From contig NZ_BAABIA010000012.1 in the NCBI RefSeq assembly GCF_039542385.1, positions 1 through 64,000 of the forward strand: DNA of 64,000 bases, given 5' to 3'. Made by a program: the position numbers and the translations under genes. The DNA comes from Prosthecobacter algae (GTDB lineage Bacteria > Verrucomicrobiota > Verrucomicrobiia > Verrucomicrobiales > Verrucomicrobiaceae). Under the pieces are notes generated by a model. It ran no database searches. It was given only the letters and a program-made list of their open reading frames with translations, and was not told the DNA's origin. Shown here piece after piece: positions 2 through 53,000 of this stretch (the first letter of the stretch is position 1; each line of letters opens with the position of its first letter).

Positions 2-3000
2 GTCATCGAGGAAGGGCGAATTGAAGAACAGAATGTTACCCACCACATCTTCGGTGAAGCTCATCGTCGGAGGAACGAAATTGTTCTCGATGTAGATCTG
101 CATTCTCCAGGCATTGGTGCCCGTGTTGGTGAAGGTCCAGTCCGGATGGATCCCGATCGTCGCATTGCCAAAGCCGACATCAGGGATCACACCCGCGGCG
201 TGGTTGTTCCAGGCAAACACCGTCTCCGGCACGGTGGCCGAAAGGTTGTGCAACTGGAAGCTGCCATAACCGATGATCGGCCCGCCAGGAGTATCGTCAT
301 AGTCAAAAAGGGTGGCAGATCCCCCGATGATCCCTGGCGGGGAGTAATTACTGGTCCAGAGTTCCAGCCTGCCCTGTTCCGTGTTGCTATTGACCACCCG
401 TGGATGGTTGGAGCGGATGGAAACATTCGTCACATTCCGCTGCGTCGTCAGGATGTTCCCCGCGTCTGGCACTTTCAGTCCATCCACCGTCAGACCCGAC
501 CAAGCATCGAAAGAGGCATCGGCATAGTAGGCCACCCCGCCCGTGGTGTTATCCATGCGATAACGCACACGGTTGAAGGGGAGACCGGCCAGAGTCGCCG
601 CGTTGTTCGTCGTATAGACAATGAGGCCTGCCCCATCGCGAGACGGGTTCACCGTTTCATAAGCGAGGTAAGATGAGGAAGGTTTGATAGCCGGACCTTC
701 ATTAACATCCGTCACGATGACAGAGATGGCTTGAGTGTCCGTTAAACCTGGCGTTCCACTGTCTGTCACGGTCACAGTGACCTCGTAGATGTTGTTCAGG
801 CCACTATCTGCAGGAGCTTCAAAGTTAGGCGCCGAAGTAAAACTCAAGGCCCCGGAGGTAGGATTGAGCGTGAAGAAGCCCGCATCCGCACCGCTCTTGG
901 TGTAGGTCAGCGTTTGTGCAGGAGTGTTGGTATCTGTCGCTGTCACCGTCGTCACCGCCGTGCTGTTTTCGGCGACATCGATGGAGGCCGTGGCATCACC
1001 ACCATTGCTGGTGATCGTCGGGGCAAAGTTAGGCACCACATAGGTGTAGAGGCTATTTGCCGCGTTGCTGCCACCGGACGTGGTGACGATGACACTGGCG
1101 GGGCCTGCACTGCCTGCCGGAGTGACGGCGGTGATGCTGGTATCGCTCACCACAGTCACACTCGTAGCGGCTGTGCCGCCGATGGTCACCGCCGAAGCAC
1201 CCGTCAAGTTTGTGCCTGTGATTGTCACCGGAGTGCCGCCGAGTGTGCTGCCCGTCGCAGGGCTGACATTGGTCACGGTAGGCGGCGTCACATAAGTGTA
1301 TAGCGTGTTCGCCGCGTTCGTTCCGATTGGCGTCGTCACCAACACACTCACCGCGCCTGCCGCACGAGCCGGAGTGGTGGCCGTGATCTGCGTGTCACTG
1401 TCCACGGTGTAGCTCGCTGCATTCATGCCGCCAAACGTGACTGCTGTGGCACCCATGAAGTCCATGCCTGTGATCGTCACCACCGTGCCACCGGCTGTGC
1501 TGCCTGCCGCCGGGGCCACATTCGTCACCGTCGGTGCAAGCAGTGTGACCTGGATCGTGAAAGTGAATGCAGCACTGCGGTCCACACCACCGTCTGCCGT
1601 GCCTCCATTGTCCACCGCGACCACACTCACCGTCGCTGAGCCATAAGCACTCGGTGCGGAAGTAAAGGTAAGCGTGCCAGCGCTGGAGATCACTGGCTGC
1701 ACGCTGAAGAGCGCATTGTTGTTATTCGTTACCGTGAAGCTTACCGCCTGCCCAGACTCACCTGAAGGGCCTGGGGAGATGTTTGTCGCCACATTGGGCA
1801 CCGTTTGGGGGCCCGCGTTTTCGGCTACCGTTACCAAGTAAGGCGCGGCAGTGACGGTCGAGGTGTAGATCTGACCCCCGATGACGATACCCACGACTTT
1901 GGTCCCATCGGCCGAGCATGCCAAGCTTCTCCATAGACGGCTGCCACTGCCAGCCTGAGGGACCCACGTCACTCCAGAGTCCGTCGAAGTGTAGATCAGC
2001 CCGCCCGAAACGGCTGCAAACAATTTCGTGCCATCTGCCGATGAAGCCAGGGCAGACCAGGCCAACTGGCTGGCTCGCGAAGTCCATGTCGAGCCTGAGT
2101 TTGTCGAGGTCCAAATGGTGCTGTGCTGGCTCGCCGCAGTCACCAGCTTCGTGCCATCCGACGATCCAGCGATCGGCACCAGATTGCCTGCGGTTCCATA
2201 ATTCGGTGTCCAGGTCTGCCCCGAATCAGACGAGGTCCAAACCGGGCCTCCGCCACCTTCCACAAAGGCCAGCTTCGTGCCGTCTGCCGAGGAAGTGGCA
2301 TACGCCCACTGCCTCGCACTGTCACGCGGCGTCCACGTCACACCGTAATCGGAGGAGGTGTAGAGGCGGGTAAAGTAGCCACCTGCCACCAGCTTGCTGC
2401 CATCTTCAGAACAAGCAATGCCACTCCAATTGCGCGTCCCTGCACCAGCCTGCAACGTCCACGTCACCCCGGAATCTGCGGAAGTGTAGATGCCACCATT
2501 CTCCACGGTGGCGGCAAGCCGAGTCCCATCCGCAGAGGAAGCAACGCTGGTCCAAGCGCGAGAACCCGAATTCTGCGCCGTCCATGTCGCTCCAGAATCC
2601 GTCGAGGTGTAAATTTGGCCGCCATTGGCCACCGCAGCCAGCTTGGTACCATCCGTCGAGGAGACCACCGACTGCCAGGCGCGGCTGCTGTCGCGAGCGA
2701 CCCATACGGTCCCTGGAGCTAGCAACTCACCCGACCCCAGAGTAAAGCTTGGCGCATCATTCACCGGCGTCACGGTGAGGGTGAAGGTCTGCACCGGGGT
2801 GGAGCTCGCACCGCCGCTGTCCACCGCTGTCACAGAGACCGTCGCGGTTCCGTGGGCATCGTCCGCAGGTGTGAAAGTCAGCGTGCCACTGGCATCCATC
2901 GCAGGCTGCATGCTGAAGAGCGCATTGTTGTTGTTCGTCACCGTGAAGCTCAGCGTCTGCGCAGATTCATCCACAGGGCCGAACGAGAGATTGGTCGCCG

Positions 3001-6000
3001 CATTGAGGATGGACTGGGCTCCAGCGTCTTCCATCACCGAAACGGAGAACGGAACCAACACTTCTGCCGAGGTATAAATTCGGTTAAAAAACGCCACCGC
3101 CGCCAGCTTGCCACCATCCGCCGAAGAGGTGATGGAGCGCCAGTTCCGGTTGTTCTCCCGCGCCGTCCAGCTCACACCGCTGTCTGTCGAAGTGTAAATC
3201 TGCCCGCCCACGGCCACCGCCGCTAGCTTGCCACCATCGGCTGAGGAGGCGATGGAAAACCAAGAGCGATCGCTTTCTCGCGGCGTCCAGGTCACCCCAC
3301 TGTCTGTGGACGTGTAAATTTGCCCGCTGTCCACCGCCGACACCAGCTTGTTACCATCCGCCGAGGAGCTGATGGCACTCCATAAGCGGCTGCTTTCACG
3401 CGCCGTCCAGGTCACACCGCTATCCGTGGAGGTATAAATCTGGCCACTATACACCACCGCCGCCAGCTTGCTGCCATCCGCCGAGGACGTGATCGAAATC
3501 CAAGAGCGATTGCTGTCTCGCGGCGTCCAGGTCACACCGCTGTCGGTGGAGGTGTAAATCCGTCCTTCTTGCTCCACCGCTGCCAGCTTGCTACCATCGG
3601 CTGAAGATGTGATGGAACTCCAATTGCGGCTGCTTTCTCGCGGCGTCCAGGTCACACCGCTGTCGGTGGAGGTGTAAATCTGGCCTGATTGCACCACCGC
3701 AGCCAGCTTGTTGCCATCCGCTGAGGACGTGATGGAAAACCAGTTGCGGTCGCTCTCCCGTGCCGTCCAGTTGATCCCGCTGTCAGTGGAGGTGTAAATC
3801 TGGCCGCTTTGCGCCACTGCCGCTAGCTTGCTGCCATCGGCTGAGGAGGTGATGGACCGCCAGGTGCGATTGGTTTCCCGTGCTGTCCATGAAGCTCCAG
3901 CGGGGGAACTCACAGTGGAAGCCAGCGCAAAGGTCGGTGCATCATTCACCGCCATCAGCGTCATCGTCACGGTCGTTGCTGGAGATGAAGAAGCAGCGCC
4001 GTCAGACGCCGTCACCGTGAAGGTCTTGGCTCCGTTCTCATTCGCCGCAGGCACGTAGGTTAAGTTCGCGAGATTCGCCGCCAGGATCACTTGGCTCGCC
4101 GTCACGTCCGAGCCGGACAGCTTCAACACGCCCGTCGCAGGCAGGCTAGCAATCGTGATGCTGGCCAGCGGGCTGCTTTCAAAATCACTGTAAGCATCTG
4201 TAAAGTCCGCTGCCGTGAAGGTCACCGTTGTATCCTCCGTGCCCCCCTTGCTGATGGATGCCAGCGTTGGAGGTGTATTGAGGTAAGTGTACAACGTGTT
4301 CGCCGCATTGGTGCCACCAGGAGTGGTGACCAGGACGCTAACCGCGCCTGCCGCACGGGCCGGGGTTGTCGCCGTGATCTGCGTGGCGCTATTCACCGTG
4401 AAGCTCGTCGCATTCGTGCCGCCAAAGGTCACCGCCGAGGCTCCTGTGAAGCCTGTGCCCGTGATCATCACACTTGTGCCGCCTGCCGTGCTGCCCGTCG
4501 CCGGGGCTACATTGGTTACCGTCGGGGCGGGGATCGGAGGAGTTGCTGGCGCGGCGGCCAGGGCCAGTGAATGTTGACTCTCGGCACTGCCCAATAACAG
4601 CTTGTTGAAGCGCTCTCCAGCCGCGAGCACGCTGCTATCGACCACCACCGGGACGGAGCTGTTCGTCAGGGTGTTGTCACCCAACTGACCCAAGTTGTTC
4701 CGGCCCCAGGAGGTCACCGTGCCATCCGAGCAAAGGGCAAATGCCTGGTAACCGCCGCCTTTGACGGCGACCACCGTCTTGCCACTGAGCACACCAGTTT
4801 GCGTGACTAGCACCGGCACGTTGCTGTTCGTCAGCGTATTGTTGCCGAGCTGACCGTACGTGTTGAAGCCCCACGCGGCCAGGGTCCCATCGGTGCACAG
4901 CACCACGCTGTGATAAGCGCCCGTCGCGAGGGCGGACACCGTCTTGCCGCTGAGCACACCCGTCCGGGTCACCGCCACAGGGACTGTAGTGCCCGTATTC
5001 AGGCCATGGCCGAGCCGACCGACAGCACCATTTCCCCAGGAAGCCAACGTGCCGTCCGAGCACAGCACCACATTGTGGACATAGCCTGCCGTGATCGCAG
5101 TCACTGTCTTGCCGCTGAGCACGCCCGTCTGCGTCACGGCCACTGGCACGAGGCTGTTTGTCGTCGAGTTGTTACCAAGCTGGCCATCCGTGTTCAAGCC
5201 CCAGGCCGCGAGTGTGCCGTCTGAGCACAGCACCAGGTTATGAGAGGCACCCGCCGCGATGGCGACCACCGTCTTGCCACTGAGCACACCCGTCATCGTC
5301 ACCGCCACCGGCACCGTGCTCTGAGTCGTCGAGTTGTTGCCGAGTCGGCCTTCACCATTGCTGCCCCAGGCTGCCAGCGTGCCGTCCGAGCAGAGCGCCA
5401 GGCTGTGGGCGATTCCCACCGTCACGGCGATCACCGTCTTGCCACTGAGCACGCCCGTCTGCGTCACCGCCACTGGCACCGAGCTGTCCGTCGTCGAGTT
5501 GTTGCCGAGCTGGCCGTTGTTGTTTCGGCCCCAGGTCAGCACGGTCCCGTCTGAGCAGAGCACGATGCTGTGGGAATCTCCAGCCGCGCCCGCGATCACG
5601 GTCTTGCCATTGAGCACACCCGTCTGCGTCACCGCCACCGGCACCGGACTGTCCGCCGTCGAGCTGTTGCCCAACTTGCCAAAGCTGCCATTGCCCCAGG
5701 CCAGGACACGATTGTTCTTCCACACGAGCACCAGGTCATTGCCAGTGCCACCATAGTAGTTGGCCACGAATTCATAATCCTCCCCGCCAAAGCTCAGCGT
5801 CACCGTTTGACCCTGCGCGAGATTGTCAAAGACGCCGTTGATGAAAGCCAAGCCCGTGTTGTTCACCACTGTCAGTTGAGTGCCCGCCGTCGGTGCAAAG
5901 CCGAGGCTCAAATTCACGGTCTTGCCGCTGGCCGTGTAACCCACCGCAGTCACCGGCACATCCGTGGCGCTGCTGTAGGCAGCGGTCAGAATCGGATCAA

Positions 6001-9000
6001 AATAAGTGAATAGCGTGTTCGCCACATTCGTGCCGCTGGGTGTCGTCACCAGCACACTCACCGTGCCCGCACTGCGGGCCGGAGTCGTCGCCGTGATCTG
6101 AGTCGCGCTTTCCACCGTGAAGCTCGTCGCATTCGTGCCACCAAAGGTGACTGCTGAAGCATTTGTGAAATCCGTACCGGTGATCGTCACCACCGTGCCG
6201 CCCGCATTGCTGCCGTTTGCTGGGGAGACATTCGTGACAGTCGGCGCAGCCACCTCTGGGCCGAGGCCGGAGAAAATATAGGCCGCACCGGAATTGTCGG
6301 CCCCCTCATCGGGCGTGCTATTGATACTCGTGGCGCCGCCGTCCTCCAAATTCGCCCCGACGACCACCGTGTCACCGCTCACTGCCACCGACCAGCCGAA
6401 GTAGTCATTTTCCGTAACCTGGCTGGCCTTCAGGTAGGCCTGCTGGGTCCAGTCACCGCTGTTGCGCACAAACACATACGCCGCCCCAGCATTGTAGGAG
6501 AACTCATCCGGCGTGCTGTTGATGCCCGTGGTGCTGCTGGCCTCACCCGTCGCCCCGACGACCACCGTGTCCCCACTCGTTGCCACCGACCAGCCGAAGT
6601 TGTCAGATTCCGAGACCTGGCTGGCCTTCAGATAGGCCTGCTGGCTCCAGTCACCGCCGCTACGCACAAACACATACGCCGCCCCGGCATAGTAAATCAT
6701 CTCATCTGGCGTGCTGTTGATGCCCGTGGTGCTGCTGGCCTCACCCGGTGCCCCGACGACCACCGTATCACCGCTTACTGCCACCGACCAGCCAAACTGG
6801 TCACTCGCCGAGACCTCGCTAGCCTTCAGGTAGGCCTGCTGGCTCCAGATGCCGCTGCTCTGCACAAACACGTAGGCTGCACCGGAATTGGGGCTCCCCT
6901 CATCCGGCGTGCTGTTGATCCCAGTCGTGCTGCTAGCCTCATTCAACGCCCCGACGACCACCGTATCCTCACTCACGCCCACCGACCAGCCAAACTGGTC
7001 ACCCGTCGAGACCTCGCTAGCCTTCAGGTAGGCCTGCTGGCTCCAGGCACCGCTGCTGCGCACAAACACGTAGGCCGCCCCGGCACCGCTGGCATTCTCA
7101 TCCGGCGTGCTGTTGATCCCCGTCGTGCTGCTGGCCTCACCCGACGCTCCGACGACCACCGTGTCTCCACTTATTGCCACCGAGATACCGAATTCATCGA
7201 ATTCCGAGACCTGGCTAGCCTTCAGGTAGGCCTGCTGGCTCCAGGTTCCGCTGCTGCGCACAAACACATAGGCAGCTCCGGCAGCGTTGGCCAGCTCATC
7301 CGGTGTGCTGTTGATGCCCGTGCTGCTGCTGTCATCACCCCTCACCCCGATGACCACCGTGTTCCCGCTCACCGCCACCGAAAAGCCGAAGAAGTCATTT
7401 GGCGAGACCTCGCTAGCCTTCAGGTAGGCCTGCTGGGTCCACACCCCACTGCTGCGCACAAACACGTACGCTGCCCCAGAATCGAAGGACCCCTCATTGG
7501 GCGTGCTGTTGATCCCCGTCGTGCTGCTGTCCTCAAAATGCGCACCGACGACCACCGTGTCTCCACTCACTGCCACCGAGTTGCCGAACAGGTCAGTCGT
7601 CCCAGCGTGACCGAGCGGCCCTGTCGGCTTCACATACGCCTGCTGGGTCCAGGTGCCGCCGCTGCGCACAAAAACATACGCCGCCCCGGCAGAGCCGGCC
7701 AACTCATTGGCCGTGCCGTTGATGGCTGTGGTGTCGCCATCCTCTAAATACGCTCCGACGACCACCGTGTCTCCACTCACTGCCACCGAGTAGCCGAAGA
7801 AGTCCAACCCCGAGACTTGGCTGGCCTTGAGGTAGGCCTGCTGGGTCCATACCCCGCTGCTGCGCACAAAAACATACGCTGCTCCGGCAGAGTCGGCGAA
7901 CTCATTGGCCGTGCTATTGATACCCGGGGAGCTGCTGTCTTCCCGATACGACCCGACGACCACCGTGTCCCCGCTCACCGCCACCGACCTGCCGAACAGG
8001 TCATTCCCCGTGACTTGGCTGGCTTTCAGGTAAGCCTGCTGACTCCAGGTTCCGCTGCTGCGCACAAACACGTAGGCTGCCCCGGCATCAGCGGCAGCCT
8101 CATTCGGCGTGCTATTGATGCCCGTGCTGCTGTCCTCATAAATGGACCCGACGACCACCGTGTCCCCACTCACCGCCACCGAGTAGCCGAACCAGTCAAA
8201 CCCCGAGACCTGGCTGGCCTTCAGGTAGGCCTGCTGGCTCCACGTGCTGCCGCTGCGCACAAACACATAGGCCGCCCCGGCAGCGTTGACGAGCTCATTG
8301 GGCGTGCTGTTGACGCCCGTTGTGCTGCTGTCTTCAAAAATAGACCCGACGACCACCGTATCCCCGTCCACCGCCACCGAAAAGCCGAAGTTGTCACCCA
8401 CCGTGATCTGGCTGGCCTTCAGGTAGGCCTGCTGACTCCAGGTTCCGCTGCTGCGCACAAACACGTAGGCCGCTCCAGCAGCGTTGGCACCCTCATTCGG
8501 CGTGCTGTTGATGCCCGTCGTGCTGCTGTCCTCTAAATTCGCCCCGACCACCACCGTGTCCCCGCTCACTGCCACCGAGTGGCCGAAGTTATCTTGCATA
8601 GTGACCTCGCTGGCCTTCAGGTAGGCTTGCTGGCTCCAGGTGCCACTGCTGCGCACAAACACATACGCCGCCCCAGAGTTGTAGACACCCTCGTTGGGCG
8701 TGCTGTTGATGCCCGTGCTGCCGCTGTCCTCCTCATTCGCCCCGACCACTACCGTGTCCCCGCTCACTGCCACCGAAAAGCCGAAGTTGTCACCCGCCGT
8801 GATCTGGCTGGCCTTCAGGTAGGCCTGCTGGCTCCACGTCCCAGCGCTGCGAACAAACACGTAGGCCGCCCCGGCATTGGGGCTCCCCTCATCCGGTGTG
8901 CTGTTGATGCCCGTGCTGCTGCTGTTCTCATATATTGCCCCAACCACCACTGTATCACCGCTCACCGCCACCGAGTAGCCGAACTGGTCGCCCACCCCAG

Positions 9001-9811
9001 CATAGCCGAGCGACTCTGCCAAGGGCTTCAAATACGCCTGCTGGGCGATCGGGTCGATGGTGATGGGGTAGCGCGCTGCGCTCTCGTCCACTCTCAGGAT
9101 GATACCCCCCTCAGGCCCGGCCACGAAACGGGAAGGCAGCACCTGCCCATCCGCATCCCACACCTTCAGTCCAGCATAGGTCACCACCGGTGCGCCCACT
9201 CCGTCACGGAAATAAATCGTCTGCGCATCTGCCGCCACACTGGCCTTCAGCGTGCCGCGTGTGCCCAGCACCACCTCCAGCGCCGCATCCGCCGCCGCCC
9301 CCGCAGGACGACGAGCCACCGTGAAACCATGCTCCAGCCCGCGCTGGTCATTGACGAACCACTCCTGCACATCCGCATCCCACTGGTAGCTCAGGCGCTG
9401 CCCCTCGGCCTTCACCACAGGCTTCCCCTGCACCGCACGCTGCTGCTGGCCGAAGCCGTAACTGCGCAGCTCCAGCCCCCACTGCCACTCCGCCGCCTTT
9501 GGCTTGGCCAAAAAGCCACGCCCATCAAACTGCGTGGTCCACTGCTGCCCGGCATTGCGCGCCTGCCAGCCATCCTTTGTGGGCAGAAAGCTGTGCTCCC
9601 AGGCCTTGTGTGCCGCGCGGATGCTCTGCCAGTCTGACTTCGCCAGTCCCTCAGGCACCTGATCTGGCGAGCTGAGCTGCTGGGATTTTCCCGCTACGCC
9701 GCCCCGATCTTCCGACGTTACAGGTGACTCAGCCTGGAGCTGCGGGAAACTGAAGATCAGAGCGGCAAACAGACCACGCAGGGCATGAGGGGCAGACAAG
9801 TGATTCGTCAT
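2..9811 (-). CDS. Giant secreted multi-propeller protein, C-terminus cut by window edge
   Basis: The frame stays open from the ATG at 9811 to the window edge, at least 3270 codons with no stop seen. I checked the frame at several points (9811, 5203, 3142, 967 and the left edge). A signal peptide (about residues 1-27, MTNHLSAPHALRGLFAAL...) is followed by a family-unassigned region to about 250. Then come 14 FG-GAP-like repeats (about 254-1184), an IPT/TIG Ig-like domain, seven RCC1-type repeats (about 1357-1752), another IPT/TIG and a cadherin-like stretch. Seven Asp-box repeats (about 1969-2249), a linker and seven more (about 2362-2654) follow, then two or more IPT/TIG domains, a cadherin-like module and a lectin-like segment that runs off the edge. 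Most of these families bind ligands, Ca2+ or other proteins outside the cell, so a surface or secreted adhesin/scaffold is inferred. No enzyme motif was recognised. The C-terminal anchor is not visible. Confidence 0.9.
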   Translation of the reverse strand, partial: MTNHLSAPHALRGLFAALIFSFPQLQAESPVTSEDRGGVAGKSQQLSSPDQVPEGLAKSDWQSIRAAHKAWEHSFLPTKDGWQARNAGQQWTTQFDGRGFLAKPKAAEWQWGLELRSYGFGQQQRAVQGKPVVKAEGQRLSYQWDADVQEWFVNDQRGLEHGFTVARRPAGAAADAALEVVLGTRGTLKASVAADAQTIYFRDGVGAPVVTYAGLKVWDADGQVLPSRFVAGPEGGIILRVDESAARYPITIDPIAQQAYLKPLAESLGYAGVGDQFGYSVAVSGDTVVVGAIYENSSSTGINSTPDEGSPNAGAAYVFVRSAGTWSQQAYLKASQITAGDNFGFSVAVSGDTVVVGANEEDSGSTGINSTPNEGVYNSGAAYVFVRSSGTWSQQAYLKASEVTMQDNFGHSVAVSGDTVVVGANLEDSSTTGINSTPNEGANAAGAAYVFVRSSGTWSQQAYLKASQITVGDNFGFSVAVDGDTVVVGSIFEDSSTTGVNSTPNELVNAAGAAYVFVRSGSTWSQQAYLKASQVSGFDWFGYSVAVSGDTVVVGSIYEDSSTGINSTPNEAAADAGAAYVFVRSSGTWSQQAYLKASQVTGNDLFGRSVAVSGDTVVVGSYREDSSSPGINSTANEFADSAGAAYVFVRSSGVWTQQAYLKASQVSGLDFFGYSVAVSGDTVVVGAYLEDGDTTAINGTANELAGSAGAAYVFVRSGGTWTQQAYVKPTGPLGHAGTTDLFGNSVAVSGDTVVVGAHFEDSSTTGINSTPNEGSFDSGAAYVFVRSSGVWTQQAYLKASEVSPNDFFGFSVAVSGNTVVIGVRGDDSSSTGINSTPDELANAAGAAYVFVRSSGTWSQQAYLKASQVSEFDEFGISVAISGDTVVVGASGEASSTTGINSTPDENASGAGAAYVFVRSSGAWSQQAYLKASEVSTGDQFGWSVGVSEDTVVVGALNEASSTTGINSTPDEGSPNSGAAYVFVQSSGIWSQQAYLKASEVSASDQFGWSVAVSGDTVVVGAPGEASSTTGINSTPDEMIYYAGAAYVFVRSGGDWSQQAYLKASQVSESDNFGWSVATSGDTVVVGATGEASSTTGINSTPDEFSYNAGAAYVFVRNSGDWTQQAYLKASQVTENDYFGWSVAVSGDTVVVGANLEDGGATSINSTPDEGADNSGAAYIFSGLGPEVAAPTVTNVSPANGSNAGGTVVTITGTDFTNASAVTFGGTNATSFTVESATQITATTPARSAGTVSVLVTTPSGTNVANTLFTYFDPILTAAYSSATDVPVTAVGYTASGKTVNLSLGFAPTAGTQLTVVNNTGLAFINGVFDNLAQGQTVTLSFGGEDYEFVANYYGGTGNDLVLVWKNNRVLAWGNGSFGKLGNSSTADSPVPVAVTQTGVLNGKTVIAGAAGDSHSIVLCSDGTVLTWGRNNNGQLGNNSTTDSSVPVAVTQTGVLSGKTVIAVTVGIAHSLALCSDGTLAAWGSNGEGRLGNNSTTQSTVPVAVTMTGVLSGKTVVAIAAGASHNLVLCSDGTLAAWGLNTDGQLGNNSTTNSLVPVAVTQTGVLSGKTVTAITAGYVHNVVLCSDGTLASWGNGAVGRLGHGLNTGTTVPVAVTRTGVLSGKTVSALATGAYHSVVLCTDGTLAAWGFNTYGQLGNNTLTNSNVPVLVTQTGVLSGKTVVAVKGGGYQAFALCSDGTVTSWGRNNLGQLGDNTLTNSSVPVVVDSSVLAAGERFNKLLLGSAESQHSLALAAAPATPPIPAPTVTNVAPATGSTAGGTSVMITGTGFTGASAVTFGGTNATSFTVNSATQITATTPARAAGAVSVLVTTPGGTNAANTLYTYLNTPPTLASISKGGTEDTTVTFTAADFTDAYSDFESSPLASITIASLPATGVLKLSGSDVTASQVILAANLANLTYVPAANENGAKTFTVTASDGAASSSPATTVTMTLMAVNDAPTFALASTVSSPAGASWTARETNRTWRSITSSADGSKLAAVAQSGQIYTSTDSGINWTARESDRNWFSITSSADGNKLAAVVQSGQIYTSTDSGVTWTPRESSRNWSSITSSADGSKLAAVEQEGRIYTSTDSGVTWTPRDSNRSWISITSSADGSKLAAVVYSGQIYTSTDSGVTWTARESSRLWSAISSSADGNKLVSAVDSGQIYTSTDSGVTWTPRESDRSWFSIASSADGGKLAAVAVGGQIYTSTDSGVSWTARENNRNWRSITSSADGGKLAAVAFFNRIYTSAEVLVPFSVSVMEDAGAQSILNAATNLSFGPVDESAQTLSFTVTNNNNALFSMQPAMDASGTLTFTPADDAHGTATVSVTAVDSGGASSTPVQTFTLTVTPVNDAPSFTLGSGELLAPGTVWVARDSSRAWQSVVSSTDGTKLAAVANGGQIYTSTDSGATWTAQNSGSRAWTSVASSADGTRLAATVENGGIYTSADSGVTWTLQAGAGTRNWSGIACSEDGSKLVAGGYFTRLYTSSDYGVTWTPRDSARQWAYATSSADGTKLAFVEGGGGPVWTSSDSGQTWTPNYGTAGNLVPIAGSSDGTKLVTAASQHSTIWTSTNSGSTWTSRASQLAWSALASSADGTKLFAAVSGGLIYTSTDSGVTWVPQAGSGSRLWRSLACSADGTKVVGIVIGGQIYTSTVTAAPYLVTVAENAGPQTVPNVATNISPGPSGESGQAVSFTVTNNNNALFSVQPVISSAGTLTFTSAPSAYGSATVSVVAVDNGGTADGGVDRSAAFTFTIQVTLLAPTVTNVAPAAGSTAGGTVVTITGMDFMGATAVTFGGMNAASYTVDSDTQITATTPARAAGAVSVLVTTPIGTNAANTLYTYVTPPTVTNVSPATGSTLGGTPVTITGTNLTGASAVTIGGTAATSVTVVSDTSITAVTPAGSAGPASVIVTTSGGSNAANSLYTYVVPNFAPTITSNGGDATASIDVAENSTAVTTVTATDTNTPAQTLTYTKSGADAGFFTLNPTSGALSFTSAPNFEAPADSGLNNIYEVTVTVTDSGTPGLTDTQAISVIVTDVNEGPAIKPSSSYLAYETVNPSRDGAGLIVYTTNNAATLAGLPFNRVRYRMDNTTGGVAYYADASFDAWSGLTVDGLKVPDAGNILTTQRNVTNVSIRSNHPRVVNSNTEQGRLELWTSNYSPPGIIGGSATLFDYDDTPGGPIIGYGSFQLHNLSATVPETVFAWNNHAAGVIPDVGFGNATIGIHPDWTFTNTGTNAWRMQIYIENNFVPPTMSFTEDVVGNILFFNSPFLDD
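1850..2725 (-). repeat. Seven diverged Asp-box repeats, group 2 (coding)
   Basis: A second set of seven units carries the same core (SSADGTKL...IYTSTDSGVTW) but has diverged, with spacing of about 120-127 bp. Some units have substituted Asp-boxes, for example SSDYGVTW, SSDSGQTW and STNSGSTW. A cadherin/Calx-like linker (about 2725-3065) separates it from group 1. It is probably the older copy, or one under weaker homogenisation. Confidence 0.8.
3065..3905 (-). repeat. Seven 120-bp Asp-box repeats, group 1 (coding)
   Basis: Seven units read W-x-SITSSADG-x-KLAAV-x-x-x-GQIYTSTDSGVTWT. The core STDSGVTW is an Asp-box (SxDxGxxW), typical of BNR/sialidase, sortilin and HCF136-like propellers. The same codon of each unit recurs at exact 120-bp intervals (near 3121, 3241, 3361, 3481, 3601, 3721 and 3841), so no insertion or deletion has entered the array. 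Seven 40-aa blades fit one propeller. Confidence 0.85.
4560..5745 (-). repeat. Seven RCC1-type repeats (coding)
   Basis: Seven units of about 165 bp (55 aa) read LGNNSTT...VPVAVTQTGVLSGKTV...HSLALCSDGTLAAWGxNxxGQ, the RCC1/BLIP-II propeller signature. The last unit is degenerate. The segment opens with a half unit (LAWGNGSFGK) that could complete the last blade, as in the strand-swapped closure of RCC1 rings. The preceding residues DLVLVWKNN link it to the upstream IPT/TIG domain. Confidence 0.85.
6260..9060 (-). repeat. 14 tandem FG-GAP-like repeats (coding)
   Basis: Fourteen units of 193-210 bp lie head to tail inside the giant gene. Each codes for a QQAYLKAS strand, GDxFGxSVAVSGDTVVVGA, a variable acidic loop ending in TGINSTP, and GAAYVFVRS. 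The core SVAVSGDTVVVGA can be counted 14 times (near 6375, 6565, 6770, 6965, 7165, 7360, 7560, 7770, 7970, 8165, 8360, 8560, 8755 and 8955). FG-GAP repeats are blades of integrin-alpha-like seven-bladed propellers, so 14 units would make two rings; that fold is an inference. Confidence 0.85.
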
Positions 9812-10507
9812 AGAAAAAGTAGCAGAAAACACAAGAAATGCGGAGAAGAATGACCCGTAACTGTCCGACCCGGCCTCAGATCGAAAAAGTAATGTAAGGC
9901 AAAGGGAAAACAGCAGACCACAAGCCTTACACCAACACTGACTAGTGAGATCTTTACTCGCCACCTAGATTTTTAAAAAAACCAATTTAACGATCTCAAT
10001 TTCAAGAGGTTTCTTTTCTCTAAGATCTAGGATTTCAAAATAAATAAATCATTTTAACTATATTATTAACCTAGATAGAATGACTTTTAATCAACAAAAA
10101 ATTATTAATTTAATCTTATGAACTAGTATTAATTTTTGGTAATTTTTAACTTAAATTATGAAGCACAATCTCCAATGGCTTCATCTTTTATCAGAGACCT
10201 TTCAAGGACTAAGGCACGAACACCTGACTGGGTTAAGCAAGCCCCGAGGTGGAATGGAATCTACGCAGAAGAGTTTCCCAAACTCTTTTTGAAGTCTCGT
10301 GAGATTCAGCCTCGTCGCACTCAGCACACCCAAATAAATCAGCCTCCGCACAGCGGAACTCAGGTAAAGAATTCCCGTATCCGAGCCACCGCCTGGACAT
10401 CCATGTGCCCGCCCTCAAGACACGCAAGTGACTGGGCATGGACATCCACGCTGGACTGTAAACCAGTTTATTTGGCGACCTAAATTTGTGGATTCGCGCT
10501 GGGCAGA
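9812..10507. other. Gene-free gap with AT-rich core
   Basis: No convincing gene is seen. From about 9945 to 10165 the sequence is extremely AT-rich (long A/T runs), in sharp contrast to its high-GC flanks, and it lies just upstream of the minus-strand giant gene, so it probably holds that promoter. CCTAGAT at 9964-9970 and its complement ATCTAGG at 10025-10031 form a spaced inverted repeat. At 10269-10290 an AAGAGTTT-CCC-AAACTCTT hairpin followed by T residues resembles a small plus-strand terminator, but no gene precedes it. TGGACATCCA occurs twice (10394 and 10439). Confidence 0.6.
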
Positions 10508-42679: not shown

Positions 42680-45600
42680 TTAACGACGGCGACGCCCCAA
42701 AAGGGCCATCGCACCGAGCATGAGCAGCAGGACACGGCTCGGCTCGGGGATAAAGACAATGACAAGGCTGCCCGTGCTGGTGAACTGGCTGACATCCCAA
42801 ATGTAGCCCGTGCCACTGATGTCTGGAAGATTGAACTGGCCCAGATTGTCGCCCGAACCGTCGCGGTTCATCCCGACATCAAAGCCGGTGAAGTTGGTGG
42901 AGACCAGAGTCGCCCAGTCCAGCAGATTGAAGATCTGGCCTGCGACCGGGGTAAAACCAGAAGAGCTGACCGTGATGTTGCCGCTGAACGTCAGCGAGGA
43001 GCCGCTGCCGCCATTGAAAACGAGGCGGTCATGATCACCGCTGCCAGTGATGCCCTGCACGTAGGTTTGGTAACCGGGAGAACCCACGGCATTGCCACCA
43101 AAGTTGGGATCCAGCACGCCCTGGTTGGTGGCGCTGGTGATGCTGAGTTCGATGCCGGAGCTCGTGGCAAAATCATAGGTCCCCACGCCGGATGCGGGCG
43201 TGAAGGTGAGCGTGCCATTGCCCGTGGTTGAACCCGTGATGATGTTACCGCCCTGGAGACCTGCGCCCTCAAGCAAAGAGAAATTGGAAGCCTGAACGGT
43301 GCCTGTGCCGACCAACTGCGCCCCATAAGATACAAAGGTCGCCCCGGTGCCGGTGAACCCACCCGTGGCCACATCGAGGGTGCCTGCCAGCACTTCCGTC
43401 GTGCCACTGTGGGTATTCGAAGCACTGCCCAGCACCAGAGTGCCGAAGCCGGTCTTGTCAAAATCGCCCGTGCCTGTGACGGCATTCTGAACGGTCAAGG
43501 TCCGGGTGGCTTCCACTTCGATCGTGCCGCCGTTCGGACCAAAGGTGATGCCACGGTTTGCATCATCCATGACAAAGGAATTGTAGGCCGTGAGGGTGCC
43601 ACCGTTCAAAGTGAGATGGGCGGCATTGAAAGCGGCGGGATTGGAGCCCAGATTGCCTTCATTGTTCAGGCGCAGCTTGCCCGCGTTCACCGTCGTGGTG
43701 CCTGTGATGGAGCCAGCCGTGGTCGTCGCTTCTGTGCTGGTAGAACCGGTCAGGGTCAAGGTGCCCGGACCATTTTTGACGATGTTCACATCGTATTCAT
43801 TGGTGCGACGCTGGAAGTGGTTCACCGTCGTGTTGCCCGTGCCGCTGAAGATGATATCCAGGGAGGTTGTCGCGCTCCCGGAGAGCCGGTGGTACATCAT
43901 CGCGTTCGTGAAGGTCAGAGTACCATTGTTGACGATGTTGTAGGCGGGAGCGGTGCCATTGGCCAGACGGAGCTGGGCATTGAAGACCTGGGTGCCGCCC
44001 AGAACTTCCAAGGTGTCCCCATAGGAATACAACACTCCTCCGGTGCCTGTATTGACGACGAAGTTCTGTTCACCGCTGAAGTAGAGGCTGCGAACGTTTC
44101 GGTCCCCATCAATCGCAGTCGTTAAGTTGCTGGCCAAGCCTTGGAAAAAGACGTCGGTGCTGGGAGAGGGAACCGTGCCGACCTCCCAATTTTCCCCGTT
44201 CGCCCAGGAGCCATCGACATCGCCCTGCCAAGTGTGGTTGAACGCGGTTTTGTTGATCGAAATGGTCCCATCGGTGAGGAAGTTGTCGGTCACCCAGCCA
44301 TAGCCGCTGGGCAGAGTTCCGGCATTGGCAAAGTCGAAGGTAAAATTCCCCGTCTTGGTGGCGGAGCCGATGCCCGTCCAGTCAATGAGCTGCCAGATCC
44401 CATTACGCCAGGGGAGGTGGGAACCGGAAACATCCGCCACCGAAATGATGCCGCCAAGGGTGATGGTGGATGCCTGGGTGGTGAGGCTGAGCAGATCCGA
44501 CTGCCCCAGAGTGGCAGCCCCGGCGTTGCTGAAGAGATCAAACTGAAGCGTGCCCGCGAGTGTGATCGCGACATTGGTGGCCCCGCCCAGGCGGAGATTC
44601 GAAACCTGGCCCAGGTAACCCGCGCTGCCTGCCACACTATTCGCCAACTGATGCGTATTCCCCACCATCAGACGGGTACCAGAGGCGATGGTGATGCTGG
44701 CTCCCGTGCCGCCGCTGATGATGCCCGTGCCACCCAGGGTGCCGGTGCCGCTGGTGATGACATTGCCCGTACCCGTGGCGGAACCAGTGGTATTGGTAGC
44801 CAGCAGGGTGCCTGCGCTGATGAGAGTACCACGGGAATAATTATTGGCGGCAGAAAGTGCCCAGGTGCCGGTGCCCGTCTTGGTGAGCTGCAGGGCGATC
44901 GTGGCACTGGCATTTGTATTGGTTCCGCCGATGACGCCGCTCATCACACCATTGCCCACGCCGTGCAGATTAAGGCTAGAGACATGGGCTGCATCGGTGC
45001 TGGTGGAGCGGACCGTACCGCTGAGGGTCAGCGTCTGTCCGGCCACGGTGTTGTCAATGCGGGCATTACCACTGTTGGTGCCGTTGCCGTTGGAAAGGCG
45101 GATGTCGCGATCACTGGAGCCACCGTTTGCGCCGGTAAACTCAATGCGACCAATGGTGCCGCTATTTTGTCCCAGGGTGATCAGGGTACCTGCGCCCATG
45201 GCCGAATTGACCCCTTTATTGCCAAGGGTGGCAAAGCGGAACGCCCCATCGGAAATGCTGATGTTCCCCAAAAAGCTGTTGGCATTATTGTTCAGAAAGA
45301 CCGTACCGCTGTCGGTGCGGTTCAGACCGCCTGTGCCAGAGATCAACCCATCGATGATGAAGTTCTGGGAGCCACGGAAGGTCAGGGTTCCCGGCAGCAA
45401 AACGCTGCCAGTCAGAGTCAATGCCCCGGAGCCCTGATTGTAAAAGGAACCACCGCCTGTGATGGTACGATCCGTCGAGGCAGCCGCACCTGTGTATTTC
45501 ACATGAGAGTTGGCCCCGACAGTGAAGCCGCTACCCGCGCCAACGGCGCTATTAGAGCCAGCATTTGCGATGCTGGAGAAGAGAAGCGTGGCATTGGTCA

Positions 45601-46399
45601 CCACCGTATTGCCGGTATAACTGTTGGCATCGTTGATGATACGCCAGACGCCGCGCTGACCGCCGTTGACTCCATTCACAGAAACCGAAAGTCCGCCCAG
45701 GGCACCGCCATTGGAGATGAGGCCGCTCACGGTGTTCCCGGAGGCATCGTTGCTGCGGTTACCGATGGTAGTGTTCAAGTTCAGCGCGATGGTCGAGGTG
45801 GTGGTGCCACCGCTGATGTTGCCCGTGATGTTCAGCTTGTAGGTGCCAGGGTCCGCATCGGCGCTCGTCGCATTATTGGCGATGGTGTAGGTGCCTGCCG
45901 TGGTGCCGCTGGCAGCCTCCAGGATGAGGGGGGCATTGATGGTCGTCGTGGTGAGGGTCCCGGAAGACACCGTCAAGCTACCACCGCTGCTCAGACGCAG
46001 AGCTTCGCCGGCATTGGGCCCGGCACTGCCCAGGGTGTATAGCCCGGCTGTATTGGTGCCATTGAAGGTCAGGCTGCGGAGGTTTCTTCCCGCATCAATG
46101 GTGATCAGCGTTTCCGCCGTGGTGCTGCCAAAGGTGGCCGTGTCTGCACTGGTGGTCCCTGTGGTCTGGCCGGGGGCTACCCCGCCCGTCCAGTTACCCG
46201 GAACTGCCCAACTTTGAGTGCCCGTCTGGGCCGGATTCCAGGTGCCATTCACCACCTGGGCGGAAGCAGAAAGGCTGGCCAGAAAAACCAAAAGGCAAGG
46301 CAACCACCATCGGCCCACAACTCCCGCTGGGAGGGTTCGACCTAAATGCAAAGTGGAGGCATGGTCGCCCATGCTCCTGAAGAGCTGACTGATGTGCAT
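42680..46399 (-). CDS. PEP-CTERM protein with autotransporter-associated beta-strand repeats (1239 aa)
   Basis: An exported repeat protein. From ATG 46399 (another at 46372 is also plausible; a TTG at 46492 is unlikely) it has a long basic N-region and a hydrophobic signal segment ending LASLSASAQ. The body is many Gly/Thr/Ser-rich beta-strand units, for example GTWALSAANNYSRGTLISAGTLL, the autotransporter-associated repeat type that probably forms a parallel beta-helix. The C-terminus is a PEP-CTERM sorting tail: IPEPSR, a hydrophobic helix (VLLLMLGAMALLG) and RRRR. Exosortase cuts such tails and exports or anchors the protein in exopolysaccharide-producing Gram-negatives; no exosortase gene is in the window. 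No translocator barrel is present. Confidence 0.9.
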   Translation of the reverse strand: MHISQLFRSMGDHASTLHLGRTLPAGVVGRWWLPCLLVFLASLSASAQVVNGTWNPAQTGTQSWAVPGNWTGGVAPGQTTGTTSADTATFGSTTAETLITIDAGRNLRSLTFNGTNTAGLYTLGSAGPNAGEALRLSSGGSLTVSSGTLTTTTINAPLILEAASGTTAGTYTIANNATSADADPGTYKLNITGNISGGTTTSTIALNLNTTIGNRSNDASGNTVSGLISNGGALGGLSVSVNGVNGGQRGVWRIINDANSYTGNTVVTNATLLFSSIANAGSNSAVGAGSGFTVGANSHVKYTGAAASTDRTITGGGSFYNQGSGALTLTGSVLLPGTLTFRGSQNFIIDGLISGTGGLNRTDSGTVFLNNNANSFLGNISISDGAFRFATLGNKGVNSAMGAGTLITLGQNSGTIGRIEFTGANGGSSDRDIRLSNGNGTNSGNARIDNTVAGQTLTLSGTVRSTSTDAAHVSSLNLHGVGNGVMSGVIGGTNTNASATIALQLTKTGTGTWALSAANNYSRGTLISAGTLLATNTTGSATGTGNVITSGTGTLGGTGIISGGTGASITIASGTRLMVGNTHQLANSVAGSAGYLGQVSNLRLGGATNVAITLAGTLQFDLFSNAGAATLGQSDLLSLTTQASTITLGGIISVADVSGSHLPWRNGIWQLIDWTGIGSATKTGNFTFDFANAGTLPSGYGWVTDNFLTDGTISINKTAFNHTWQGDVDGSWANGENWEVGTVPSPSTDVFFQGLASNLTTAIDGDRNVRSLYFSGEQNFVVNTGTGGVLYSYGDTLEVLGGTQVFNAQLRLANGTAPAYNIVNNGTLTFTNAMMYHRLSGSATTSLDIIFSGTGNTTVNHFQRRTNEYDVNIVKNGPGTLTLTGSTSTEATTTAGSITGTTTVNAGKLRLNNEGNLGSNPAAFNAAHLTLNGGTLTAYNSFVMDDANRGITFGPNGGTIEVEATRTLTVQNAVTGTGDFDKTGFGTLVLGSASNTHSGTTEVLAGTLDVATGGFTGTGATFVSYGAQLVGTGTVQASNFSLLEGAGLQGGNIITGSTTGNGTLTFTPASGVGTYDFATSSGIELSITSATNQGVLDPNFGGNAVGSPGYQTYVQGITGSGDHDRLVFNGGSGSSLTFSGNITVSSSGFTPVAGQIFNLLDWATLVSTNFTGFDVGMNRDGSGDNLGQFNLPDISGTGYIWDVSQFTSTGSLVIVFIPEPSRVLLLMLGAMALLGRRRR

Positions 46400-46601
46400 G
46401 GTGCCGCGAGGGGGGAAGCGAACGTTTGTCTGCCCTGGCAGGGGGTTGGAAAGGCAGACGCACATGATAACGCGTCCGTTTTGGCCATGCAAAGAGGAAT
46501 TCCTTTATGTGCGCCCTGTGTCAGGCTGGCAAAAAGCACCGCAGAAACCTATTTTTAAATCATTCGGCCATCTACGGTGTCAAATCTGAGGAATTCCAAC
46601 C

Positions 46602-50048: not shown

Positions 50049-53000
50049 TTAGGGACGGCGGCGGCGGGTAAACAGCGCTAGCCCACCAAAAACCAAAAAA
50101 ATAGCCCGCGACGGCTCCGGCACCAGGGTGATGCTGAGGACACCTGAGGTGAACAAATCCGAGGTATTCCACACCAGGCCATCGGGCAGTGAGGGAAGGT
50201 CAAACTGGGCCACGCTGCCAGCGATGGGTCCCGTGAGCCCCGTCCAGTCAAATAACCGCCATTGGTCATTCGCGGCCCAGGCGGTCAGGCCAGTGGGATT
50301 GGCCACTTTTAAAATCGTGGTGCTGGTCAGGTCCAGCCCGCCCAGGATGATGGCCCGGTCTGCCGCAGCGGCGATACCCGTATTGTCGCCCAAACCTGCC
50401 CCCGAAAAGAGATCGAAGTCCAGGATGGAGCCCGTCTGCAAGGTGAGTAGGCCCGTGCCCGTCGTCTGCAAAGTCAGCAGACCTGCCACTGTGGGCGTGG
50501 CCCCGGGCAGTTCCGTGCCGATCTGGAGGGTGGCCCCGGTGAGGGTGATGTTTCGGTCTGCCCCGGCGAGGATACGGCCACTGCCGCCCAGGGTGGCTCC
50601 AGCGGCGACCGTGACATTTCCTGTGCCCGTGGCGGAACCGCTACCGATGAGGTTGCTCACTAAAAGGGTGCCAGCATCCACCAGCGTGCCGCCGCTGTGG
50701 GTGCTATCTCCGGTGAGGGTCCACGTTCCCAGCCCGGCTTTTTGCAGCACGGTGCCGACGCTGCCGTTGTTTCCGATGCTGACGATCTCATTGGCTCCTT
50801 GGTTGGTTCCCGTCAGGCGCAGGGTGCGGGTGGCGGTGACGTTTGTGCCCGTGGAGGTGAAGGGGGCGGTGAACTTCACGCTGCCGACGCCGTTGTTTTC
50901 CAGCACAGCTAGCACCGTCTGCACGGTGGTGACGGAATTGGAAATCTGAATGGGCCGATCGGTGGTCGCATCACTGCTGCCCACATAACGCAACGCCCCG
51001 ATGACATGAAGGACGGTGGTATTGCCGCCACTGGCCAACTCGATGACTCCATTGCTTGTGCCTGTGCCCAGAGAACTAGCGGTGCCCTGATTGGCCAGCA
51101 CCGAGGCCTCCACCGTGGCATTGCGGATGAGGGTCTGGCCCGCATAAGTATTCGCCGGGCCCAGAGGGAGAAACATGGTGGTGGGCACCGTGGCGGTGCT
51201 GACGGTGGCGACGTCATTCACAGACAGGGAGAGGTTGTTCTCGTTCTCGCCAGCCCCGCCGAGGAATCCTGCGCGGAAGTTGTTGTTAGACGTGACGTTA
51301 TCCACCATCAGCGTGGAGATGACACTGGCTCCACCGACGATGCGGTTGTCCGTGCCAGTGCCCATGACTTGGAGCCAGTCCACGGTGGTGTTATAAGCGG
51401 TGCTGCCGATGCCGAGGATGATCTTGCCACTACGGTCACCCGAGCCCAGGAGGAACTCGGTATTGGAGCTGATGGACCCCGATTGGAAATGCAGGATGCC
51501 TTCATGCACGCGCGTGCTGCCCGTGTAGGTGCTGGCCCCGCGCATGACCAGGGTGCCCAGGCCGCCTTTGGTGACAGTAGTGCCGAAACCAGCGGCGTTG
51601 ACGATGGCAGAATTGATGACCAGCGGGGCGGCGGTGTTGTTTTGAATGATGGGCAGGTCGTTGTTCGCCCCGGCATCCGGTGACTTCAGCGTGCTGGTAG
51701 AAATGGTCTGGGTAAAGTTGCCCACAGTGCTGGAAACCAGGATGCCACCAACGGTCAAAATACGCCCCGTGACATCCTGCGCGAGAGTGGTCGTCTGGGC
51801 CTGGCCAAAGCGCAGGCTGGTGATGGCCGTGTTTGCCCCCAGTGTGGTGGTGCCCACTCCGGCAGCAATGTCTGCATTGCCCACCAAAGTGGTGGCGGTG
51901 GTGGGCGTGTAACCGCCAGAAGGCAAGGCTGAGAGGGGGACGATCTGCCGCACACCGCCGCTGAGGGCCGTGGAGCCTAACCATTCATCTCCGGCAGCGG
52001 CATCCAGCGACCACAGGTAAGGCGCACCGAGTGAGGAAGTGAAGATGGCATTGTCCGTGCCGCCCGTTGTCGTGAGGCTGCCAGTGGTGGGCCGGGTGAT
52101 GCCCACGATGCCGCCGACACCGCGAGTGAAGCTGCCAAAAGAGAGATCTACCCGGGTGGCCCCATTCTGCGCCACCGTGATGTAGCTGGAGCCTCCATGC
52201 GCGGTATTCACCCCTGTGGGCACCACTGGGCCAAAAGCTTGGCTATTGCTGGCTCCGCTCTTGCCCGTGATGAGCAGTGTACCGCTATTAAGGTTGAGTT
52301 CGTTTGGGATGGCGATGCCACTGTGCAAGATATTCGTGGTAGGGCTGGTGGCGGCGCTGAAGTCCAGGTGCAAAGCCCCGCCATTCAGCGTGGTGATGGT
52401 GTTGCCCACTGAGGAGGCCAGCATCACGGTGCCGTTGCCTTCCTTCACAATCGTCAGTGCGCCCGTGCTGGTGCGGGTGATGGGGTCCAGCACATCCATG
52501 TTCCCTGCCCCGGCCAGGACTAAGACACGTGCGGTGGTGGCCGTCTGCGTGATGGCGGCCCCGCTGGCGGTATCAAAGATGAGTTTGCCACTGTCTGACT
52601 GGATGCGGATGGTGGTGACGCCGCCCAGGGTGATGAGGCCCGTGAGGGTGTTATTGCCGCTGACATTGCGGATGCCACCATTGCTCGCGACCCCGAGGCT
52701 CGATATGGAAATGGGTTCTGCCGCGAGGGTGATGCCCCCTGCCAGTTCCAAGGCTGCGCCAGCACTGATGACGGTGGAACCAAAAGTGGTTGCTGAGACA
52801 CCGAGCGCATTGGCATGTGTGGGCCGCAGGACCCCAGCGCTGATGGTGAGAATGCCGGTGAAATTGTTATCCCCTCCCAGAGTCAGGCTGCCATTACCCG
52901 TCTTGGTCAGCAAGCCCGTCGCAATGTTGATGCGCCCATTGATGGCCGTATCTCCACGACCGCCAATGTTTAAATTCACCGTGCCTGTGATGGCATTCGT

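Follow-up and report, generated by a model that had tools for sequence, protein, structure and literature searches.

A gene at one end of the window, by which we mean the whole stretch of 64,000 nucleotides of Prosthecobacter algae DNA analysed here, probably encodes a giant exported train of beta-propellers, a reading to which we give a probability of about 75%. The 14 FG-GAP repeats of the protein would give two seven-bladed rings in succession, each like that of integrin alpha, its RCC1 septet would make a single RCC1-type ring, and each of two Asp-box septets would form one seven-bladed ring nested after the first strand of an Ig-like carrier domain. The C-terminus, which is lost at the end of the contig, would most likely add one more ring, of seven Kelch repeats, and a tail of the DUF7453/NxxGxxAF type. 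In the proposed history of this protein, blades are largely homogenised within the chain, while most of the rings stay complete.

Searched against the organism's own genome, the window DNA maps to contig C12, bases 1-64000, and window base 1 is the first base of that contig. The open reading frame of interest (2..9964, minus strand, 3321 aa) runs open into window base 1, and thus the gene is truncated by the end of the assembly. Residue 52 of this frame is an ATG at position 9811, which is also the end coordinate given in an earlier annotation made from the letters alone, hereafter the sequence-only reading. The features of the chain are collected in Table 1. The motif ARYPxTIDP closes the N-terminal region, directly ahead of the FG-GAP block, in all six relatives that we aligned.

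Table 1. Predicted features of the giant protein gene, in window coordinates and in order from the N-terminus.
Feature	Position	Strand	Basis or remark
Giant protein gene	2..9811	-	3270 aa from ATG 9811; C-terminus lost at contig end
Signal-peptide-like N-terminus (MTNHLSAP...LQA)	9731..9811	-	Judged by eye
N-terminal region ahead of propellers	9044..9730	-	Sequence, alignment with six relatives
FG-GAP ring 1, blades 1-7	7646..9043	-	Pfam, anchor pattern, model residues 26-473
FG-GAP ring 2, blades 8-14	6263..7645	-	Anchor pattern, model residues 492-944
IPT/TIG domain 1	6005..6247	-	Pfam/profile matches
RCC1 ring, 7 repeats	4556..5710	-	Pfam, anchors, PDB sequence and fold match
IPT/TIG domain 2	4286..4528	-	Pfam; ends approximate
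Big_9/Cadherin_5 domain	3974..4279	-	Pfam
Split Ig-like "socket" domain 1, first strand (NDAPTF...)	3890..3946	-	Pattern, core profile
Asp-box ring 1, 7 blades, within socket 1	3065..3889	-	Anchors, model
Socket domain 1, remainder	2756..3049	-	Profile matches
Socket domain 2, first strand (NDAPSF...)	2705..2761	-	Pattern, core profile
Asp-box ring 2, 7 blades, within socket 2	1856..2704	-	Anchors, survey; sequence only
Socket domain 2, remainder	1547..1846	-	Profile matches
IPT/TIG domains 3 and 4	1040..1534	-	Pfam
Cadherin-like stretch and start of C-terminal module	2..1030	-	By eye

Pfam searches of the frame returned 14 stretches of FG-GAP_2 (PF14312; E 4.1e-166; 539.6 bits against a curated cut-off of 23), seven of RCC1, four of TIG and a Big_9 match, with Cadherin_5 and BNR_6 (Asp-box) matches falling below the Pfam cut-offs. 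Anchor patterns gave 14 FG-GAP repeats spaced 65-70 aa apart, seven RCC1 repeats at a spacing of 55 aa and two Asp-box runs of seven at 40-42 aa. The Asp-box motif SxDxGxTW itself occurs six times in the first block; in the second it occurs five times strictly and six times if one D is allowed to be N. Relative to the line above which propellers are called "highly repetitive" (median blade identity >0.60), the FG-GAP block (0.71) and the first Asp-box block (0.74) lie above, RCC1 (0.60) lies at the line and the second Asp-box block (0.40) lies below. A Pfam match to Gly_transf_sug over the second Asp-box block (26.9 bits against a cut-off of 23) was taken as chance. Pfam stretches and anchor patterns thus bear out the blade counts of the sequence-only reading (14 FG-GAP, 7 RCC1 and two sets of 7 Asp-box), though for a truncated gene. 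Its five complete propellers are supported as predicted rings, the second Asp-box ring by its blade count, but the gene is cut short and a sixth, Kelch, ring is probable. Its three blade families are indeed distinct, but "unrelated" overstates the case, since a single ancient blade is the supposed source of most propeller families (PMC8023676); nor do all these families form only seven-bladed propellers, since passages of PMC2716378 list Asp-box rings with 5, 6, 7 and 10 blades. IPT/TIG and cadherin-like domains do occur as described, but the Asp-box rings are nested inside a cadherin-like domain rather than placed between spacers.

We compared blade numbers across 139 partly overlapping sequences, comprising the window, contig C19 of the same genome, 77 loci and 60 regions of relatives. 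The loci came from one scan of a genome collection (best 80 of 403 relatives) and the regions were hand-picked from the matches listed; the sample is non-random, and some contigs were included twice, identical blocks being counted once. Weak end matches were trimmed and blocks with fewer than three blades or a low mean score were dropped, using cut-offs chosen after the unfiltered counts were seen. We observed 7, 14 or 28 blades in 143 of the 163 complete blocks. By family, multiples of seven make up 84 of 94 FG-GAP blocks (70 with 7, 13 with 14, one with 28, and 10 others), 42 of 50 RCC1 blocks (all 42 with seven; eight others) and 17 of 19 Asp-box blocks (all 17 with seven; the others have six and eight). 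Without the filter, and for blocks of at least four blades, the fractions were 80/96, 39/55 and 17/20, respectively, weak spurious blocks included. The filter removed weak FG-GAP runs, among them those in L232 (ten), L254 (five) and L095 (six), and blocks at contig edges, such as the 11 blades in L049, were excluded from both counts. Beyond seven blades, the filtered set contains 14 complete FG-GAP blocks, each of 14 or 28 blades, the weak run of ten in L232 having been dropped. Clustering of the FG-GAP blocks at 70% leaves the preference for multiples of seven in place: of 55 clusters, 44 have 7 blades, eight have 14 and one has 28, with nine entries at other numbers (a cluster is entered once for every different blade number in it).

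Some of the 20 exceptions are split frames or missed blades. The FG-GAP exception in L093 is a frame split 4+3, and L213, scored among the RCC1 exceptions, has seven motifs by eye. Apparently real FG-GAP deviants are the second block on C19 (six blades), L047 (six), L079 (five) and L062 (four); others of this kind are the eight Asp-box blades of L202 and the nine RCC1-like repeats of L102. The expectation that relatives keep seven or fourteen units therefore describes most blocks, the 20 exceptions including one in the organism's own paralogue. Likewise, the argument that exact multiples of seven mean closed rings and not random amplification captures a strong tendency, not a law. Of 31 frames with several blocks, some of them cut by sequence ends, nine carry at least two of the three blade families, and all three occur together only in the window frame. 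Two other large frames were seen in the survey: a 2439-aa frame in L253 (6874-14190, plus strand) holds 28 FG-GAP-like blades, four times seven, in one block, and a 2477-aa frame in L238 (6696-14126, plus strand) holds four RCC1 blocks of seven.

Blade number and blade identity behave differently in these proteins. Fourteen blades as a duplicated septet that kept its blade identities left little sign: in 13 fourteen-blade proteins, the mean identity of blades i and i+7 differed from the mean for the remaining cross pairs by between -0.02 and +0.04 (0.71 versus 0.70 in the window), the excess being largest in L214 and L256. Positions were then compared between proteins in 28 pairs drawn from eight of the 13. 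In 12 pairs, the same position gave the highest identity among the 14 shifts, against a chance expectation of 2. Only the pair of the window and L036 stands well clear (0.84 at the same position versus 0.71 at other shifts), and the window gave 0.57-0.70 at the same position against six others, versus 0.57-0.67 at other shifts. Because this weak positional signal persists, the number fourteen appears to be partly inherited, at least in the closer group. The blades are largely homogenised within proteins, and their number is steadier than their identity.

Selection for complete rings would be the simplest reading of this pattern, with common descent accounting for part of it. Alternatively, the blade numbers could reflect unselected expansion and contraction of repeats, the multiples of seven being inherited from few ancestors. 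This would accommodate the blocks that are not multiples of seven, the residual positional signal and the homology of many blocks, as the FG-GAP set falls into six clusters at 50% identity. A continuum of intermediate numbers is also described in passages on a published set of propellers (PMC9218822). We nevertheless consider this alternative improbable, given that blades are largely homogenised beyond the nearest pair, and so were exchanged or re-amplified with the number unchanged, and that the longer complete FG-GAP blocks jump to 14 or 28 once the weak run in L232 is filtered out. Moreover, NHL rings in the same socket, described below, have six repeats, the number usual for their family.

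The end of the gene was sought elsewhere in the genome. Contigs C12 and C19 both end in a common module with 83% DNA identity (first 1200 window bases). C19 is 11,474 bp long and carries a paralogue in the order FG-GAP 7, TIG domains, FG-GAP 6, Asp-box 7, cut within the shared module, while its opposite end holds the tail of a similar giant gene. The tail starts on C19 and C13 have 127 identical bases in common, and L203, an uninterrupted orthologue of 2975 aa in genome G019, has a body of the C19 type connected via 47 residues to a tail of the C13 type. The C19 body therefore most likely joins the C13 tail, and by elimination we infer that the window gene continues into the C19 tail, which comprises 1213 aa with seven Kelch motifs, PKD, choice-of-anchor D and DUF7453/NxxGxxAF. 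The complete gene would then probably contain six heptads, including one Kelch ring, and not five. C19 may instead be an 11.5-kb circle rather than a contig joining C13. Across the 55 further genomes that were searched, matches to the Kelch part did not exceed 49% identity, leaving the contig join without an outside witness. A DUF7453/NxxGxxAF tail like that on C19 (L008, 7836-9700) also occurs on contigs C13, C1, C3, C2 and C14 (64-89% DNA identity, longer matches), and the DUF7453 repeats may form another propeller. The second FG-GAP block of the C19 paralogue (L008, 1-7642) has six blades where the orthologue L203 has seven; one blade was probably lost in C19, or else gained in L203. Assembly collapse is an unlikely source of the six-blade block, in which the top DNA identity between blades is 0.816 and the longest exact word shared is 29; the top blade identity in the window FG-GAP block is 0.848.

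With a signal-like start, TIG domains and cadherin-like domains on one chain, we tentatively suggest that the protein serves outside the cell as a multivalent binding scaffold or adhesin, in which the rings would present several binding faces per chain. It seems unlikely that the chain is instead a multidomain degradative enzyme in which one or more rings act as a glycoside hydrolase or oxidase. The first Asp-box block does resemble a GH74 xyloglucan hydrolase (E 4e-7) and an exo-alpha-sialidase (E 1.4e-5), and matches the NCBIfam glycosylhydrolase model NF045728 at E 3.9e-30, although its 104.9 bits are below the cut-off of 175; in the Kelch tail, Pfam Glyoxal_oxid_N scores above its cut-off (43.3 versus 37.5) and NCBIfam GlxA far below (88.8 versus 800). 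However, such matches to enzyme families are expected from shared blades, and near-uniform blades would leave little room for an active site. We likewise doubt that the protein serves in self/non-self recognition or conflict instead of in adhesion or the binding of substrates. Repetitive propellers have been linked to innate immunity and self-recognition in passages of PMC9218822, but neither the chain nor the C19 tail matches a PADLOC model, and toxin, protease and NACHT families are absent among the Pfam and NCBIfam matches listed at E 0.001. The neighbours in the window (a PEP carboxylase, a 7660-aa frame and two frames with PATR repeats) offer no direct functional clue. The 7660-aa frame, a second giant (14523-37505, minus strand, TTG start), contains many He_PIG and SdrD_B domains together with PA14, GEVED and Laminin_G_3, and the other two are large, autotransporter-like frames with passenger-associated transport repeats (PATR; 42680-46492 and 50049-55133, both minus strand).

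To what extent the repeats close into rings was judged from superpositions of predicted models on whole rings. The FG-GAP block was modelled with AlphaFold from residues 297-1262 and an alignment of seven sequences (model residue equals ORF residue minus 296), the best model reaching a mean pLDDT of 72.4 and a pTM of 0.53, with the five models spanning 56.4-72.4. In VIA-align, model residues 26-473 and 492-944 each superpose on integrin-alpha propellers, with Z of 31.4-34.6 in the matches listed and rmsd of 2.7-3.2 Å over 335-359 residues among the 50 matches listed. The gap between the superposed halves (ORF 769-788) lies at the boundary between blades 7 and 8, blade 8 starting at 774, and loop lengths mark the same boundary: blades 1 and 8 measure 71 and 70 aa versus 61-66 in the others, and their first loops have 14 and 13 residues versus 9 in the other twelve blades. 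Longer first loops at these two blades recur in L036, L044 and L057. The model and the sequence thus agree in predicting that the 14 blades make two separate seven-bladed rings of the integrin type. A pattern search of residues 308-1234 found the DxDxDG calcium loop absent, and for this reason the block, while integrin-like in its predicted fold, is not classed as an integrin-type calcium propeller; a PDB sequence search with it gave a single match, at E 0.16. That the repeats fold but into other ring sizes, or into rings shared between chains, is very unlikely in view of the split at blade 7|8 onto two seven-bladed integrin rings and the longer loops at the identical boundary, even though WD40 propeller fragments give homo-oligomers of six to nine blades (passages of PMC6805158), a 15-blade run has been predicted as 7+8 (passages of PMC9218822) and Asp-box rings vary in size as cited above.

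The RCC1 block through the first socket was modelled from residues 1395-2440 with six sequences, giving a mean pLDDT of 56.6 and a pTM of 0.39. Within this model the Asp-box ring reached 74-91 (model residues 631-900), the TIG and Ig-like parts stayed below 50 and the RCC1 part ranged from 34 to 81 in ten-residue blocks, with a low first blade. The modelled RCC1 part superposes on UVR8 with a TM score of 0.72 on the target (382 columns, rmsd 5.5 Å). By sequence, the block matches UVR8 (E 7.5e-50; query residues 62-379 of 411), and it shows the marks of RCC1-like proteins, namely seven RCC1 stretches and WD40_RLD at 392.6 bits against a cut-off of 150. The seven repeats are thus predicted to form one RCC1-type ring, with a fit looser than that of FG-GAP or the first Asp-box block. 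The latter superposes on the WD40 ring 3ow8 (Z 29.0, 274/293 residues, rmsd 2.5) and on the designed seven-bladed v13WRAP-T (Z 28.7, 276/286 residues). Model and repeat count therefore agree on a predicted seven-bladed ring for Asp-box block 1, the Asp-box block that was modelled. Since an open array should not give such cover, the whole-ring superpositions of FG-GAP and Asp-box 1 point to closed rings. Structure prediction, the check proposed along with the sequence-only reading, hence favours rings over open solenoids, more loosely for RCC1.

Several parts of this architecture are familiar. Sets of seven FG-GAP repeats in tandem were described for bacteria in a 2011 study (PMC3192720), with seven repeats per ring and blades more uniform than in integrins, as here; in contrast, our block consists of FG-GAP_2 repeats without DxDxDG and shares its chain with RCC1 and Asp-box rings. 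Passages of PMC9218822 report FG-GAP, RCC1 and Asp-box propellers of the highly repetitive kind, formed by amplification of single blades, and WD40 blade numbers peaking at 7 and 14. The high internal blade identity is common to both; the continuum of numbers there has WD40 as its example, whereas here, after filtering, no complete FG-GAP block has 8-13 or 15-27 blades, and nesting in Ig-like domains was not met in those passages. WRAP of Nostoc punctiforme, as described in passages of PMC6805158, likewise has 14 similar blades in a row, but these are near-identical WD40 blades, a different family, and identity is lower here (median 0.71). The RCC1-like UVR8 (PDB 4dnu and others) resembles our block in its seven repeats, sequence and fold, but our block has a probably exported bacterial context and no regulator function is implied. 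Asp-box hairpins are shared with YCF48 and with the tandem seven-bladed rings of GH74, a likeness that for GH74 is at the level of the family; here, unlike there, the rings are nested within an Ig-like domain.

This nesting led us to compare the Ig-like domains themselves. Each Asp-box ring in the window has NDAPxF upstream and the remainder of the Ig-like domain downstream. A strict text pattern found no empty socket, and a wider one found L062, in which the domain is whole and the distance from NDAPSF to the core is 29 residues, versus 317-332 with a ring inside. The Pfam Big_9 match begins at profile position 2 in uninterrupted L062, but at 28 and 12 behind window rings 1 and 2, at 11 behind the NHL ring of L322, at 33 behind the RCC1 ring of L321 and at 12 behind the Kelch part of C19. 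These offsets are support and not proof, because the matches behind window ring 2, L322, L321 and C19 are all below the Pfam cut-off. A core-profile search of the survey loci gave 42 distinct matches with a score of 35 or more, which we sorted by eye into 17 behind a propeller (12 Asp-box, three RCC1, two NHL), 21 uninterrupted, two at an edge and two ambiguous. The script had labelled them ASP 15, ASP+RCC 1, RCC 2, FGG 1, uninterrupted 7, other 14 and edge 2; rows were relabelled where the surrounding sequence revealed another, complete domain or where the script had overlooked a motif or a ring. Both halves of the domain are visible in 12 of the 17 ring-bearing sockets. Independent insertions are fewer than these rows, because L320 and L322, L220 and L222, and L008 and L203 resemble each other. 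Asp-box rings also occur outside this socket, for example in L042, L202, L211, L216 and L229.

The NHL rings of L320 (5708-7495, minus strand) and L322 (7332-9119, minus strand), with six motifs each, share the insertion place of the Asp-box rings, and the RCC1 ring of L321 has seven motifs. Blade number thus follows the family, and there is no universal seven. On balance we favour the view that the Ig-like (Big_9/cadherin-like) domain is a standard socket of these bacteria, in which rings of seven Asp-box, seven RCC1, six NHL or, least surely, seven Kelch repeats are exchanged after the first strand while empty copies persist, and that the size of the cassette is set by the ring closure of its family and not by blade ancestry. 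What appears to be new here is this shared insertion site accepting different rings; the parts, and tandem 7+7 FG-GAP propellers, were already known. Among the papers listed in literature searches, none dealt with propellers inserted in Ig-like domains, which does not prove their absence.

These proteins offer a natural test of the limits that a closed fold places on the evolution of repeats, as blades turn over and complete rings still predominate. Should the socket be borne out, it would provide a simple rule for building very large bacterial proteins, in which whole rings are exchanged at one site because the two ends of a ring lie side by side. The socket also suggests a tolerant scaffold for engineering.
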